This document shows, in pieces, positions 4,854 to 56,945 of a stretch of DNA of 64,000 nucleotides. How positions within the stretch are numbered: the first letter of the stretch is position 1; every line of letters begins with the position of its first letter. The notes beneath the pieces were generated by a model, which worked only from the letters and a program-made list of their open reading frames with translations, was not told where the DNA came from and made no database searches. The stretch is from Macrobrachium rosenbergii. Its lineage: Eukaryota > Arthropoda > Malacostraca > Decapoda > Palaemonidae. The stretch spans positions 17,686,401 to 17,750,400 of the forward strand of contig NC_089766.1 in the NCBI RefSeq assembly GCF_040412425.1, in the 5' to 3' direction. The position numbers and the translations under genes are program-made.

Positions 4854-5519
4854 TTACCTTTCCTCCTGGGGGGGGACAGGTTGCCAAAAGGGACCCTGTG
4901 GTTCTTTCCACGGAGGCGAAGAAGTTTTGGGCTGGACTTTACCCTGAGCGCCCGCCGAAGTACCAGACTTCTTCAGGGCTGGGGTGCTACCCTGTTTCAG
5001 GGACCGGGCCGCAGGACAAGAGGGCTGTGCAACACCTTTCGTCGCTGCCTGGTGGACAAGACGGTCGCGTCCATCAGCCTTTCTCTTGTCCACCGCAGCG
5101 TCCACCTCCCCCTTGGGGAAGAGGGAGGTGGAGTCCAGAATGGTCCATTACGCAGAGACACTGCAGCTTCTGTACCTAGTGACCTGACGAGCCAGGATAG
5201 CACCGCATCCCTTCTCTTCAGCACCAGGTTGGCCCAGAGGTTTGCCACCTGGTGGGTTATAAAGGAAATAGCCTTACCCCCAGACTGGCAAAGACTCCTG
5301 AAGGTCGGACTCGCTCTGGGCAGACGAGGCTGCAATTCTCGACAACGCGAAGGTCCAGTTGTTGAGCCAAGCGATTACCTGGAGGGCACATAGAGCCGTA
5401 CCCTCCAAAGCGCTCATCTCAGCTTGCGAGAAAAGTGCCTGTTCTCCCAGCAGCTGAGCCGAAGTGGCACCAGGTGCTAAACGAGTCAGCCCTGGTTCCA
5501 TGACCTTCTGCTGCAGCAC
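4854..5519 (-). pseudogene. DIRS gag-like ORF, two in-frame stops
   Basis: One reading frame runs from a Met at 5519 to a stop at 4854, interrupted by two TAA codons (5274-5276 and near 5140). The N-terminal part contains EGTALCALQVIAWLNNWTFA, similar in style to DIRS gag proteins. The C-terminal half is Lys/Pro/Ser-rich and basic, as expected of a nucleic-acid-binding tail. No zinc knuckle is visible. Assignment rests on position upstream of the RT and on a remembered resemblance, so it is less certain than the RT and recombinase. Confidence 0.55.
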
Positions 5520-6000: not shown

Positions 6001-6500
6001 NNNNNNNNNNNNNNNNNNNNNNNNNNNNNNNNNNNNNNNNNNNNNNNNNNNNNNNNNNNNNNNNNNNNNNNNNNNNNNNNNNNNNNNNNNNNNNNNNNNN
6101 NNNNNNNNNNNNNNNNNNNNNNNNNNNNNNNNNNNNNNNNNNNNNNNNNNNNNNNNNNNNNNNNNNNNNNNNNNNNNNNNNNNNNNNNNNNNNNNNNNNN
6201 NNNNNNNNNNNNNNNNNNNNNNNNNNNNNNNNNNNNNNNNNNNNNNNNNNNNNNNNNNNNNNNNNNNNNNNNNNNNNNNNNNNNNNNNNNNNNNNNNNNN
6301 NNNNNNNNNNNNNNNNNNNNNNNNNNNNNNNNNNNNNNNNNNNNNNNNNNNNNNNNNNNNNNNNNNNNNNNNNNNNNNNNNNNNNNNNNNNNNNNNNNNN
6401 NNNNNNNNNNNNNNNNNNNNNNNNNNNNNNNNNNNNNNNNNNNNNNNNNNNNNNNNNNNNNNNNNNNNNNNNNNNNNNNNNNNNNNNNNNNNNNNNNNNN
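6001..6500. other. Assembly gap (500 N)
   Basis: Exactly 500 unresolved bases. The round number suggests a scaffold gap of unknown true length. Any reading frame across it is meaningless. Confidence 1.
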
Positions 6501-49860: not shown

Positions 49861-50003
<143 letters not shown>

Positions 50004-50783
50004 GTTTTGTGCGTGTGTGTATAATAGAGAGAAAGAGAAGATACTGTTGTGATGTGTTCGTAGATATACTGTACAAATATCGCTAACATCATCTGTTTTC
50101 ATTTAGGATAAAAAAATAAAAAATTAATTCATCTGCAGGAGAAAAGAGATACTAGAAATTACCGAAGACCAAAGGAGGTTCTTGTCTTGTGCCTGAGTTC
50201 AGACGAGCATAAGGCCGGCTTTTTCTGAGCCTTTACCGATGGGTGCATTAGATCATTCAGACATGAAAGCAAAATAAACGATGTTTTCAGGAGTCAGAAG
50301 TTATCAAATTCAGTCCAAAACCGTGGAGTGAAATAAGAAGAATAAAAACAAGAAGAAAAAGAAGAGCAATGCCATTTAATCTCAAAATTCTGATGAAGCT
50401 TTTGCGTATCACCCTTGCAGAATAAAACACAAGTCGACTTTGCTTGCAGGAATCTTTCCTGAAAATATCACGAGATCAAAATAAGGCCTGTAGTGGAACT
50501 GGATCTAGAATGGTATGGATCCGTACTATTGCAGCTACAGCATTTGAAGGAGATCGCTTTCAGAGAGAAGCGCTCCACCTCTCTCGATATCTCACGCGAA
50601 TACTTGCCAGGCAATAATTGCACTATTATCTTCATTAGCTAATTACGTTTCATGATTACGATTGCTCTGTTTAATGGCTGGATAAAAGGCTGAAGGAAAT
50701 CATTATGGCTCCCAAGGAGTAATCGAATGCTTTGAGAAAAGGAATGTATATTTAAAGCTAACGGTAATATTGACTATGACTAG

Positions 50784-50940
50784 TAGTGCAGCAGATTGCT
50801 GTAAAAATCGTTCAGATAGTGAAACAAGCATGAAATTTGTCATAAGAAATTTTTCCTAAGACTACGCTCTCTTAGAAAAAGGGCGCTGGCCACCTGAAAA
50901 TCCAAGATGGCGGCTATTTTTCAAAATGGCTGCCATCTAT
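50784..50940 (+). repeat. Left terminal inverted repeat
   Basis: Imperfect ~150-bp arm, alignable to the complement of 55071-55223 with small gaps. It contains AAGATGGCGGC at 50904-50914, identical to the core of the metazoan YY1/Pho site, followed by AAAATGGCTGCCAT. A related subterminal copy (AAGATGGCG then AAAATGGTTGCCAT) lies at about 51080-51106. Confidence 0.75.
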
Positions 50941-51042
50941 GTTGAGATTCACTGGTTTGGGAGCATCTATTAGATGGAATATGCCAGTTTTTTTTTTTTT
51001 TAAACCTCGACTTTTAGGTCATAAAATGTTCCATACCACATT

Positions 51043-51157
51043 TTTATTGATAAAACCCTTACTAAAATGAATTATAACCAAGATGGCGTACAAAATGGTT
51101 GCCATAAAAGTTTTTTCTATCCACAGCGCTAGAACATAGAGACCAACTGTTTTTATT
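51043..51157 (-). promoter_or_regulatory. Candidate poly(A) signals of the element gene
   Basis: On the minus strand, AATAAA occurs at 51152-51157 and 51043-51048, about 260 and 370 bp beyond the gene's last stop. Position is reasonable, but AATAAA is common in AT-rich DNA. Confidence 0.35.
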
Positions 51158-51418
51158 TAATGGTATATTCATGTGATCAGACAGTTTAACTAACATGCTA
51201 TTTTCAACTGAAATAGTAATGGTATGGTCACATACAACATTGTGTCTAAGACTGTAACCATAAAAAGAAAAGAAGAGAAATACGGACTAAACATGGCAAT
51301 CTATGTATAGGTCTCTCAACCTACACCTTTGAAAATTCGAGGATAAGAAGGTAGGCATAGCATGACACTTTGGATGCCTCAAGCTTAGATTATCTACTGA
51401 AGAGAGGGCAATATTTAT

Positions 51419-54400
51419 CTAGACTTCACATTTGCAAGTGCACAGAGCTGTGCAGGGAAGACCCAGCATAGCACTTGCACCTTGAGTTGACAGCCTGCTT
51501 TGCATCCACATTTGGTAAGCTGTTGGCAACTCTTGGCTAAGGGCGAGTTGGTTGTCCAGAGGACTTGCCATGCTTCACCAGACTTTGCCATCCCCACTCA
51601 GTTGGGTTCTCTGGCTGATTGGCTGACACTGGGTGGCCTGCCCCCACACACAACCAGCCTGGCAGTCAGCACCCTTGGTGTGTTGGAGGAGAGCTCCCCT
51701 GGTTGGTGGAATGGCCTCATATGCCCTTTGTTTTCTGGCAAACATATCAAGTCTAGCCTCATCCACAGTGCCAGCAGTGCTGGATCTTTCATACATAAGA
51801 ATGACAAACCTCTCCAGGACCTTCAGGTCACTCTTTCTCTTCCCACTCTGAGAGGGTAGTGACTCAGTTTGGAGAACACAGTGGAGGCCTCTGGAAAGAT
51901 GTTCCATGTCTGCCAGGCGGTCTTCTTGCCCTTTTCGGAAGGCTGACACTGTATCACAGCCTGTGAACGCATGGAAGAAGAGCATGCCATTCACCTTCTC
52001 CTGGCCCAGAGAGTTGCACATGTCATGCACAGCAATCCAGCGCAGGCTCTGGCCTTGGCCAAATGCCACCCTGTTAGCTTCTCTAGCCCTAGATTGTGGA
52101 GAGTGGAGAAAGCACTGACTGCAACGACAAGAACATCTGTGTCATTTGCTTTAACCGTGATGGTCTTGGCTCCATGTTCTGTGGCATATTTGGCATGGAG
52201 AAAGATGCGGGTGTCAGCTTCCTCATGAGAGCACTTTTCCAGTCCCTGAAGACTAGCCTCATGAGTGCTGAGGACAGCAGACCCTTTCGTGGCAATGACA
52301 ACATTTGTGGCAGACATCTGGGCAACTTTGTCTGCCAGGAACTGGAACAATTCTGTCTTGTTGGCATCGTGTCTTGAAATTGCGCCAGTTGGATGGAATT
52401 GTGTTCTTGTCTGTCACCTTGCGCCTTCCTCCTTGACCACGTTGGAGCCTGGTCTCAGCTTTGAGGCTGGATGTATTGTATACATCAAATACAAGATGTG
52501 AGGTCTTTCCTTTCTTTGGTGGCAAGGCATGGACCAAAGCTGATCCATCTACAATGAGGACATCAGTCTTTGGTTCTTTGTCTTCTAGTGTAACATGACT
52601 CTCCAGGACCGAGGTCAGCTGAGACTTCTGACATGTGTACAGCCTACCACCCTCACTAAGGGAAGCTGGGAATGTTTGATTCTCGTGCTGGAAGAATTCC
52701 TGCAGATCACATTCACGGCTCTGACAGGATATAAATAGCTTTGAGAAAAGCTGGCAATCCTCCTTCAAGTTTCTGCTTTGACTGTTCTACAGGAGCAGCT
52801 TCTTGCCTGAAGAAGTCAGTTCTGTTCTTCTTTATCGGCTCATAGAAGGAGACTGCATTGTTTGCCAAAGAGTCTGAAAACTTCTGAAATTTAGTGCGGC
52901 CTCTGTCAAGGTGTGTCTGTAGAAGTTCTGCTGAGCTGGGGTGGGCAATGTCTTTGTTGTCAATGGAATACAGATCCTGGCTCTCTTCCTGAAAAGGACT
53001 TCCCAAGTGTTGCAAAGCCAATGACAGCTTGCTGACTCTCTCCAAGAATGTCTTCTGCGCATGAGGTGTTTGTTCATGGTGTGTTGTCTGCTCATTTAGA
53101 CTCCTTACTTTGAACCTCTGTTTCGTATGCAGACACCAAGCGGATGATCTCTGGGCCAGCCACCATCCATCTTCTGAGTGCTGACGGATCTTCAGTCAGC
53201 CCAATGGCTCCGCCATCAGCCTTTATAAAGGCATTGGTCTGCTCATGAGCTTGGTCAAGAGCCATTGCTGAGAACTGGCGACTGGTCTTGTGCACAACAA
53301 AAGTTGCCAGCCTTGAACTCCTTGTGCAACTCTGGGTGTGAACTCTCTAGGGTAAGCATGTCCCTGAGGTGAATAGGCAGCCAACGAGCATAGTTTGTAT
53401 TATTGTTGGAAAAGAAGTAGGGTATCAGCTCATGCAATGCCTGGCAGTAGAGGACAAAATTGGCCTCACGGAAGGACCTGATCAGTAGGAATATCACAAG
53501 TTCCATAGACAACACCATGTGCCAGAAGTGGAACTGTGGACTCTGCTGTCTTCGAAGGTCACACCACTCCTCAAACTCTAATGCCTGCTCATTGTTGTTT
53601 GCTTTCTCAGCACAGTAGTCAGTGTATGCTGTCCTCAGGAGTTTGTACAAACTAGAGGCTGTAACCTGGTGCATCTGCCGTGTCCTGGTTACACTTGCAG
53701 CTGACAGGAAGGATTCTGCAGTTCCAGATGAAGCAACTCCTGCCTCCACCAGAGCTCCCTGTCCAACCACTGCCATGAAGAAGAGTACCAAGAGATGTCA
53801 TTGCTGCCATCTCAATGTGCAGACCACCAAACATTACCAGATACTTGTCTTCGCCATACTGATCAGGCCACTGCCACTGCACCTGCTTTGCTACGGCATA
53901 GATTGGCTGATCAGCTGTGATTATGGGTATCTGGCCAGGGTTCAGAAAATCAGTGACATCCTGCACTTTCTGCATCACGTGTTTGATCGTAGCAACAGAA
54001 TGAGCCTGATCACGCAGGAGAGGAAGCAATGAAGTTATGGTTACTTCAAATTCTGGGCTTCTCTTCATTGAAGCGTGATGAGCTGACCACGTCAGATTCA
54101 CTGCATCATCTATTTCCTGGGTGACTATGACCTTGTCTAGCCACTGATACTCCAGTGCAAGCTGTGGCCCCAAGATATCTGTGGGTGGCTTTGGTATTGC
54201 AGTGTTTGGTGGCACAGGGTTCTTTGTTTGAAAGGAAGCTGGTGAGATGTTTGTGAATGTGTCCGGCAATTCAGGCACCGACCTCACTTTCTCAGGTGCA
54301 AACTTTAGTTGCTGTCTTTCCTGTCCAGTGTTCTCCTTGGTGGGGTGCTGAAATATGGAGATGCTAGTTCCATGGAAGGAGGTAGTGGCAGTAGTTGCAG

Positions 54401-54620
54401 ATGGGTTGTGGTCGATGTTGTCCATCACTGCAGTGGTGAACAACCCTTTTCGCAGTACTGGGGGACAGACCACACCCTCCTCCACATATTTGCTAACTGT
54501 GGCATCTCCTAACTGTGCAGAGACCTCCAGTACTCTGTCATAAGAGATACTGAGGCCATACTGATGTAGCATTTCAACCAGGTTTCTCTGGTCTGGGGCT
54601 GTTAGAAAACATTTGGGACA
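51419..54620 (-). pseudogene. Multidomain gene: conserved N-module, FEN1/XPG-like nuclease, CXC-like tail (broken)
   Basis: I recognise the family from memory as a multicopy, uncharacterised protein in crustaceans, molluscs and cnidarians. Order on the minus strand: DNIDHNPSATTATTSFHGT (about 54375-54430); ITADQPIYAVAKQVQW and VMFGGLHIEMAAM (53800-53930); ALDQAHEQTNAFIKADGGA (about 53205-53260); LEEF/FFQHEN-type segment (near 52690); nuclease core VDGSALVHAL (52530-52560), LVFDVY with SLKAETR (about 52450-52495), SHEEADTRIFLHA (52200-52230), ANDTDVLVVAV (about 52120-52145), AFTGCDTVSAF (51935-51970); and a tail with CGCKAGC and CTALCTCKC ending at 51419. The frame begins just after a stop at 54621-54623, so the true N-terminus is missing or on another exon. 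At least seven frame changes occur, three of them single extra bases near GGG (~53770), TTTT (~53300) and AAA (~53090). About 25 residues seem to be missing between the first two acidic motifs compared with the family as I remember it. Confidence 0.8.
51935..52560 (-). other. FEN1/XPG-like (PIN-fold) nuclease core of the element gene
   Basis: Acidic residues appear in the FEN1 order. VDG matches D34 of human FEN1, VFD matches D86, E-A-D of HEEADTR matches E158-A-E160, D-T-D of NDTDVL matches D179-x-D181, and D of TGCD matches D233. Distances in the gene are about 22, 87, 26 and 60 residues, against 52, 72, 21 and 52 in FEN1. Only the first is clearly short, where this copy seems deleted. Basic SLKAETRLQRGQGGRR follows the second Asp, where FEN1 has LKSGELAKRSERR. 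The Gly-rich helix-hairpin part after the last Asp is degenerate here. Nuclease assignment is inference from motifs. Confidence 0.65.
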
Positions 54621-55070
54621 CTAAACTAAACTATACTACAACTACTAGTCTAAGACTACAGGATTAGTAAAGCTGGATTAGCTGGCACTGAACCCCATGC
54701 TGAGTTACACAGCAGTGATGTCACCAGTGTGCCCTGGTTGTGTGCAGACATACACTCTTTTACATTTATTAATTTTTCCTTCAAAATTGATGAGTTATTC
54801 GAAAGAGATGGCCTCATTAGGATCTAAAACCACTGAAACCAAGATCCATGCTTAAAACGATAATTGTTGAACGGGCATTATTTCTCATTATAATTATTGT
54901 TTCAAACCTTTTCTTGCAGCAAATATAGCCCCCATATTTAAAGGTAAACTGTACTGGAAGCTACAGAAACATAATATTCAGCAAGAAATAGTATGGAAGA
55001 GCTTTACCATATTGCCAGAAGCAAATACATGCCATTCTAGTGAAAAATTAGCCAAAATCTGTCGATTTGG

Positions 55071-55223
55071 CGCCATCTTGGAATTTGGCCGCCATATTAA
55101 ATTTTTTTGTGTTGGCCAGTGCCATTTTCTGATAGAGGGAACTTTAAAGAGCACTTGTGCAAAATTTCACTTGTTTCACTATCTGAACGATTCTTATGAA
55201 ATATGCAATTATCTGCTGCACTA
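55071..55223 (-). repeat. Right terminal inverted repeat
   Basis: Counterpart of 50784-50940. It has CGCCATCTTGG at 55071-55081 and GGCCGCCATATT at 55087-55098, the complements of AAGATGGCG and of an ATATGGCGGCC variant. Confidence 0.75.
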
Positions 55224-55426
55224 TAGTAAGATATTTGTATGTTACAGGGCAACACGCACACACAAAAAGAGGAAATTCTTTCTTCAGCAAGTACGTTAAT
55301 TATATAGCAGAGAACAGGATTTCTGTGACAGACATAGTAAACGAAATTTCACCATTCAATCTGAGTATTTGACAGAAAGAAAGCACTGAGACACTTTTTT
55401 ATGCGTATGGAACAATCAAGAGGAGA

Positions 55427-55645
55427 ATCGAGAATCACAAAATATACAATCAGAGAGAGAGAGAGGGGGCTGATTTTTTTAAGATATCTCAGATTTCGTT
55501 TCCTGGTTGGTGCAGTTACTAAAAATAAATCTGAGCCATCGAGAATCACAAAATATACAATCAGAGAGAGAGAGAGGGGGCTGATTGTTTTAAGATATCT
55601 CAGATTTCGTTTCCTGGGTGCAGTTACTAAAATAAATCTGAGCCA
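55427..55645. repeat. Two-copy ~107-bp direct repeat
   Basis: Two adjacent copies start with GAGAATCACAAAATATACAA, contain AGAGAGAGAGAGGGGGCTGA and end with AAATCTGAGCCAT. The second copy is slightly shorter (GGTTGGTGCAG versus GGGTGCAG). It forms the outer part of the left arm of the fold-back element. Confidence 0.9.
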
Positions 55646-55689
55646 TTTCCAAGATCTCTGGATATTTCGTCAACCTGTTTGTTCGTCTG

Positions 55690-56945
55690 TGCTTTTATGA
55701 ACAGGTGACATTTGGGAACAGGGGAAGAAGAACATCTCCAGCCCCTTTATATTTCTGTTCTTTTATGAACAGGTGACATTTAGGAACAGGGAAGATCTCC
55801 AGCCCCTTTATATTTCTGTTCTTTTATGAACAGGTGACATTTGGGAACAGGGAAGAAGAACATCTCCAGCCCCTTTATGTTTGTTCTTTTATGAGCAGGT
55901 GACATTTGGGAACAGGGAAGAAGAACAGCTCCAGCCCCTTTATATTTCTGTTCTTTTATGAACAGGTGACATTTGAGAACTGGGAAGAAGAACATCTCCA
56001 GCCCCTTTATGTTTGTTCTTTTATGGGCAGGTGACATTTGGGAACAGGGAAGAAGAACAGCTCCAGCCCCTTTATATTTCTATTCTTTTATGAACAGGTG
56101 ACATTTGGGAACAGGGAAGAAGAACAGCTCCAGCCCCTTTATATTTCTGTTCTTTTATGAACAGGTGACATTTGAGAACTGGGAAGAAGAACATCTCCAG
56201 CCCCTTTATGTTTGCTCTTTTATGAGCAGGTGACATTTGGGAACAGGGAAGAAGAACAGCTCCAGCCCCTTTATATTTCTATTCTTTTATGAACAGGTGA
56301 CATTTGGGAACAGGGAAGAAGAACATCTCCAGCCCCTTTATATTTCTGTTCTTTTATGAACAGGTGACATTTGGGAACAGGGAAGAAGAACATCCCAGTC
56401 CCTTTATATTTCTATTCTTTTATGAACAGGTGACATTTGGGAACAGGGAAGAAGAACATCTCCAGCCCCTTTATATTTCTATTCTTTTATGAACAGGTGA
56501 CATTTGGGAACAGGGAAGAAGAACAGCTCCAGCCCCTTTATATTTCTGTGCTTTTATGAACAGGTGACATTTGGGAACAGGGAAGAAGAACAGCTCCAGC
56601 CCCTTTATATTTCTGTGCTTTTATGAACAGGTGACATTTGGGAACAAGGAAGAAGAACATCCCAGCCCCTCTATATTTCTATTCTTTTTTGAACAGGTAA
56701 CATTTGAGAACAGGGAAGAAGAACATCCCAGCCCCTTTATATTTTTATTCTTTTATGAACAGGTGACATTTGGGAATAGGGAAGAACATCTCCAGCCCCT
56801 TTATATTTCTATTCTTTTATGAACAGGTGACATTTGGGAACAGGGAAGAAGAACGTCTCCAGCCCCTTTATATTTCTATTCTTTTATGAACAGGTGACAT
56901 TTGGGAACAGGGACGAAGCACATCTCCAGCCCTTTATATTTCTGG
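55690..56945 (+). repeat. 67-bp minisatellite, about 18 units
   Basis: The unit runs TTTTATGAACAGGTGACATT, TGGGAACAGGGAAGAAGAAC, ATCTCCAGCCCCTTTATATT, TCTATTC. Variants include 61- to 68-bp lengths, ATCTCCAG/AGCTCCAG/ATCCCAG and GAGAACTGG. In-frame peptides over it (EQVTFGNREEEH) are a repeat by-product. Period 67 is one more than a multiple of three. Confidence 0.97.

Follow-up and report, generated by a model that had tools for sequence, protein, structure and literature searches.

The locus described here lies in a 64,000-nucleotide stretch of the Macrobrachium rosenbergii genome (contig NC_089766.1, positions 17,686,401 to 17,750,400; hereafter the window). It consists of a transposable element, flanked by TAG on both sides, that encloses a single minus-strand gene, the second part of which encodes a FEN1-like nuclease (Table 1). 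The original prediction had read this element as a DNA transposon of a possibly undescribed class, with a nuclease and no DDE/D transposase, and its placement proved exact to the base. The outermost ends are TAGTGCAGCAGAT (50784-50796) and ATCTGCTGCACTA (55211-55223). Inward of these tips lies a 27-nt block, 96% complementary between the two sides (50802-50828 and 55170-55196). The imperfect inverted ends that had been proposed are real: when the two 160-bp ends were aligned with each other, the local alignment score was 124, whereas none of 1000 shuffles scored above 35.

Table 1. Features of the element in the window (positions within the window).
Feature	Position	Strand	Basis
Whole element copy, 4440 bp	50784..55223	- (gene strand)	ends and duplications common to 17 other copies
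Left target-site duplication, TAG	50781..50783	.	flank sequence
Right target-site duplication, TAG	55224..55226	.	flank sequence
Left terminal inverted repeat, imperfect, ~150 bp (inner limit approximate)	50784..50930	.	end comparison
Right terminal inverted repeat, imperfect, ~150 bp (inner limit approximate)	55075..55223	.	end comparison
Transposase gene remains, P0002 residues 389-1465, several frames	51422..54590	-	tblastn of P0002
DDE (RNase H-like) transposase part	53098..54590	-	tblastn, relatives' alignment, predicted fold
DDE codons: first D; second D; E	54420-54422; 53910-53912; 53242-53244	-	codons read
FEN1/XPG-like nuclease part (lower limit approximate)	51600..52783	-	tblastn, alignment, predicted fold
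Nuclease D codons	52547-52549; 52484-52486; 52213-52215; 52141-52143; 52135-52137; 51953-51955	-	codons read
Nuclease E codon	52219-52221	-	codon read
Cysteine-rich C-terminal tail, frameshifted	51422..51520	-	tblastn and alignment

When the first 317 bp of the element were searched for in its own 3.18-Gb genome, 829 candidate places were found. All 40 that were scored matched (94-100% identity), a lower bound on the number of left ends as 40 of the 829 candidates were scored. About 7.2 kb was taken at 20 of these 40 places, giving with the window copy a sample of 21. Both ends were present in 18 of the 21 copies, and all 18 were flanked by duplications, of 3 bp in 17 cases and 4 bp in one (L013); as a control, mismatched left and right flanks agreed in 12 of 306 pairs. 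Copy L011 turns to N ahead of any right end (its long open frames are an artefact of N), the match of L017 breaks off 39 bp short of the end (something weakly resembling an end follows ~1.1 kb beyond), and the right end of L018 is mutated. At two further places (L029 and L030) the stretch fetched was too short for a right end. All the copies compared were chosen by likeness to the window's left end, which is therefore no independent evidence; the right ends, the duplications and the gene pieces are. The same ends and 3-bp duplications recur in many copies, the left end is not confined to the window, and both the assignment to DNA transposons and the reading of TAG as a 3-bp target duplication hold. 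In L023, a second terminus, TAGTGCAGCAGATAAT (right-end form, read inward), was found at position 6034, ~1 kb past the first copy, and another copy in opposite orientation seems to adjoin the first one.

One of these copies, L025, has an open frame of 1200 codons. A search with part of its protein identified 414 relatives among 7992 scored candidates, and 120 were listed. The best relative among those listed, P0002, is an uninterrupted protein of 1465 residues with 99% identity; others carry the names Branchiostoma, Nematostella, Oculina, several fish, Petrolisthes and Portunus. In our model, the full protein of ~1465-1500 residues would be made of an N-terminal cysteine-containing region, a DDE domain, a FEN1/EXO1/XPG-like nuclease and a cysteine-rich tail. 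This tail, for which Pfam gave no match in the relatives scanned, is possibly zinc-binding. Compared with L025, the window copy lacks the part corresponding to P0002 residues 1-388, with a deletion joint near 54588, and its nuclease part has suffered a 66-bp internal deletion near 52501.

The DDE transposase that the original prediction had missed is encoded in the same gene, and its three catalytic acids are all kept in the window copy. In P0002 numbering they are D445, D615 and E837, and in an alignment of 78 relatives (42-87% identity to the first row) they are conserved in 78, 77 and 78 rows respectively. A helical insertion is predicted ahead of the final E. With VIA-align 2, the nearest neighbour of the predicted DDE fold was the P element transposase (PDB 6p5a, 6pe2), followed by Hermes, RAG1 and ISCth4. 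The P element makes 8-bp duplications and is not known to carry a FEN1-like domain. Foldseek alone gave nothing at E ≤ 0.001 for the DDE model (Transib at 0.86, RAG from about 1.3), and its best nuclease matches reached no better than E about 0.002. Both parts were resolved with VIA-align 2, a tool that merely re-aligns the hits on Foldseek's list. Of the 12 relatives scanned, 4 had a DUF6589 match in the DDE part, these 4 having been picked because DUF6589 is annotated for 8 of the 120 listed relatives.

The nuclease itself, as first proposed, is FEN1-like: its fold is strongly predicted and its acids are conserved across relatives. In structure-aligned rows it shares 12-13% identity with human EXO1, FEN1 and XPG, which are host repair enzymes without a transposase fusion, whereas the nuclease of the element is fused. 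Scans of the window pieces, P0001 and P0002 against Pfam and NCBIfam gave no confident domain, and searches of PDB sequences found nothing. Weak matches to BTB, KNOX1, DUF3136, Pox_A11 and similar families fell under their cut-offs and were discarded. Pfam detected no helicase family in P0001 or in the 12 relatives scanned, but it also misses both domains found by structure.

Among Academ transposons, those of the AcademX kind carry an XPG-type nuclease and a Cys8 motif within it. Target duplications are described as 9 or 10 bp long in AcademH and 3 or 4 bp in AcademX, a difference that seems tied to their encoded helicase and nuclease (Academ account of Kojima 2023, PMC10045372). In its passage on the subject, PMC9587614 counts Academ among the DDD/E superfamilies. 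Literature searches returned no description of the nuclease, and among the Academ passages of PMC10045372, PMC9587614, PMC10294476, PMC10799480, PMC5753468 and PMC9783078, a nuclease is named only in those of PMC10045372.

We conclude, with a probability of about 0.92, that the window element is a broken, internally deleted copy of a cut-and-paste DNA transposon of the Academ type (AcademX), because its DDE transposase, its nuclease and its duplications of 3 bp (once 4 bp) agree with AcademX on each feature tested. Judged on described features rather than on Academ sequences, this membership has good support but falls short of proof. The element has the DDE transposase, the nuclease, the inverted ends and the 3- or 4-bp duplications (17 and 1 of 18 copies) of AcademX, and no difference was found in the features compared. 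AcademH differs by its 9-10-bp duplications, against 3-4 bp in 18 of 18 two-ended copies, and by its helicase, for which the Pfam scans are weaker evidence than the duplication length; a related DDE transposase is only presumed to be common to both. The element is accordingly filed as a new family of the already described AcademX kind. The undescribed class originally suspected is not one, as its combination of DDE transposase, nuclease and 3- or 4-bp duplications has already been published under that name (PMC10045372, Academ account).

Improbable, too, is a superfamily of its own for the element, with no more than an Academ-like make-up of DDE transposase, nuclease and 3-4-bp duplications. 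This reading draws on the fact that likeness to Academ was established from described features, and that sequence searches of Pfam, NCBIfam and PDB give no confident family name. Against it, both features attributed to AcademX (Kojima 2023, PMC10045372) are present, and the ~6-kb length of the full element is close to the mean of 5565 bp given for curated bivalve Academ elements in the corresponding passage of PMC10294476.

A transposon class with the FEN1-like nuclease as its sole catalytic core, as originally suggested, is very improbable. The strongly predicted fold and conserved acids of the nuclease do speak for this reading; however, a DDE domain precedes it in the same protein, so that the classical transposase whose presence in an intact copy was to count against the suggestion does exist. 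Its triad is nearly invariant, its predicted fold is P-element-like, and DDE enzymes leave just such traces, inverted ends flanked by short target duplications whose length is constant. Finally, FEN1/XPG nucleases are standard host proteins, but it is hardly credible that this one lineage captured a host gene recently: proteins named Branchiostoma, Oculina, fish and Petrolisthes (78-row alignment) and Nematostella (separate alignment) share the DDE-nuclease fusion, which is therefore old.

The full element is ~6.0 kb long. L025 measures 6327 bp, or 6009 bp without a 310-bp insert and its 8-bp duplication; L018 is near full length (~6.0 kb) and lacks the insert, as does L029 over the stretch fetched. 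The insert (element positions 5003-5312, ends CAGTGGTTCTCAAC and GTTAAGAACCACTG, duplication GTCTAGGA) looks like a small nested non-autonomous element, which we take to be of hAT type. The remaining 17 two-ended copies, the window's included, measure 3.3-4.7 kb and derive from the full element by internal deletion. At the tabulated joints the two sides overlap by 1-14 bp, and we read this as microhomology. Joints are common to L009 and L015, and to L019 and L021, as though copies had gone on multiplying once deleted.

Over the coding region, comparison of 17 copies with L025 gave 97 substitutions in 30,237 aligned bases, distributed as 36, 23 and 38 over the three codon positions with no clustering at the third, and the 177 indel columns exceed the substitutions. 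From these counts we infer a young burst, with neutral drift since insertion. Some of the frameshifts may be assembly errors instead of real decay. The coding part of the window copy (52501-54588) has 4 substitutions relative to L025 in ~2090 bp, against up to about 3% per 200 bp in 50784-52501 and 54588-55223, and the remaining 39 scored copies are just 94-95% identical to the window's left end. This pattern could mean that the window copy is a mosaic drawn from two subfamilies.

As to mechanism, the DDE domain would cut the inverted ends and integrate them at target sites with a 3-4-bp stagger, while the flap nuclease would act on the 5′ end or flap left unjoined by the DDE step, at excision or during later trimming or repair. 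The cysteine-rich protein ends would bind DNA or protein. Deleted copies would arise through interrupted, microhomology-using repair, and those such as the window's could be mobilised in trans by intact copies. More tentatively, the nuclease might be an obligatory second catalytic centre, DDE cutting and joining the 3′ ends and the nuclease freeing or trimming the 5′ ends and setting the 3- or 4-bp stagger. We consider this doubtful; if true, it would amount to a cut-and-paste mechanism with two active sites, which to our knowledge has no precedent among eukaryotic transposons. With a young family and the nearly identical, uninterrupted P0002 at hand, what the extra nuclease does would be open to direct testing. 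Multicopy FEN1-like nuclease genes in invertebrates receive an ordinary explanation, as transposon proteins, and the notion of a FEN1-only transposon class proves false.

Several repeats surround the element. A minisatellite whose main part comprises about 17 units of ~67 bp is found a short way outside it (55686-56944), and a 63-bp stretch is directly repeated at 55427-55600, with 111-bp spacing and 98% identity. On the other side, (TA)n, repeated about 69 times, occupies 49862-49999.
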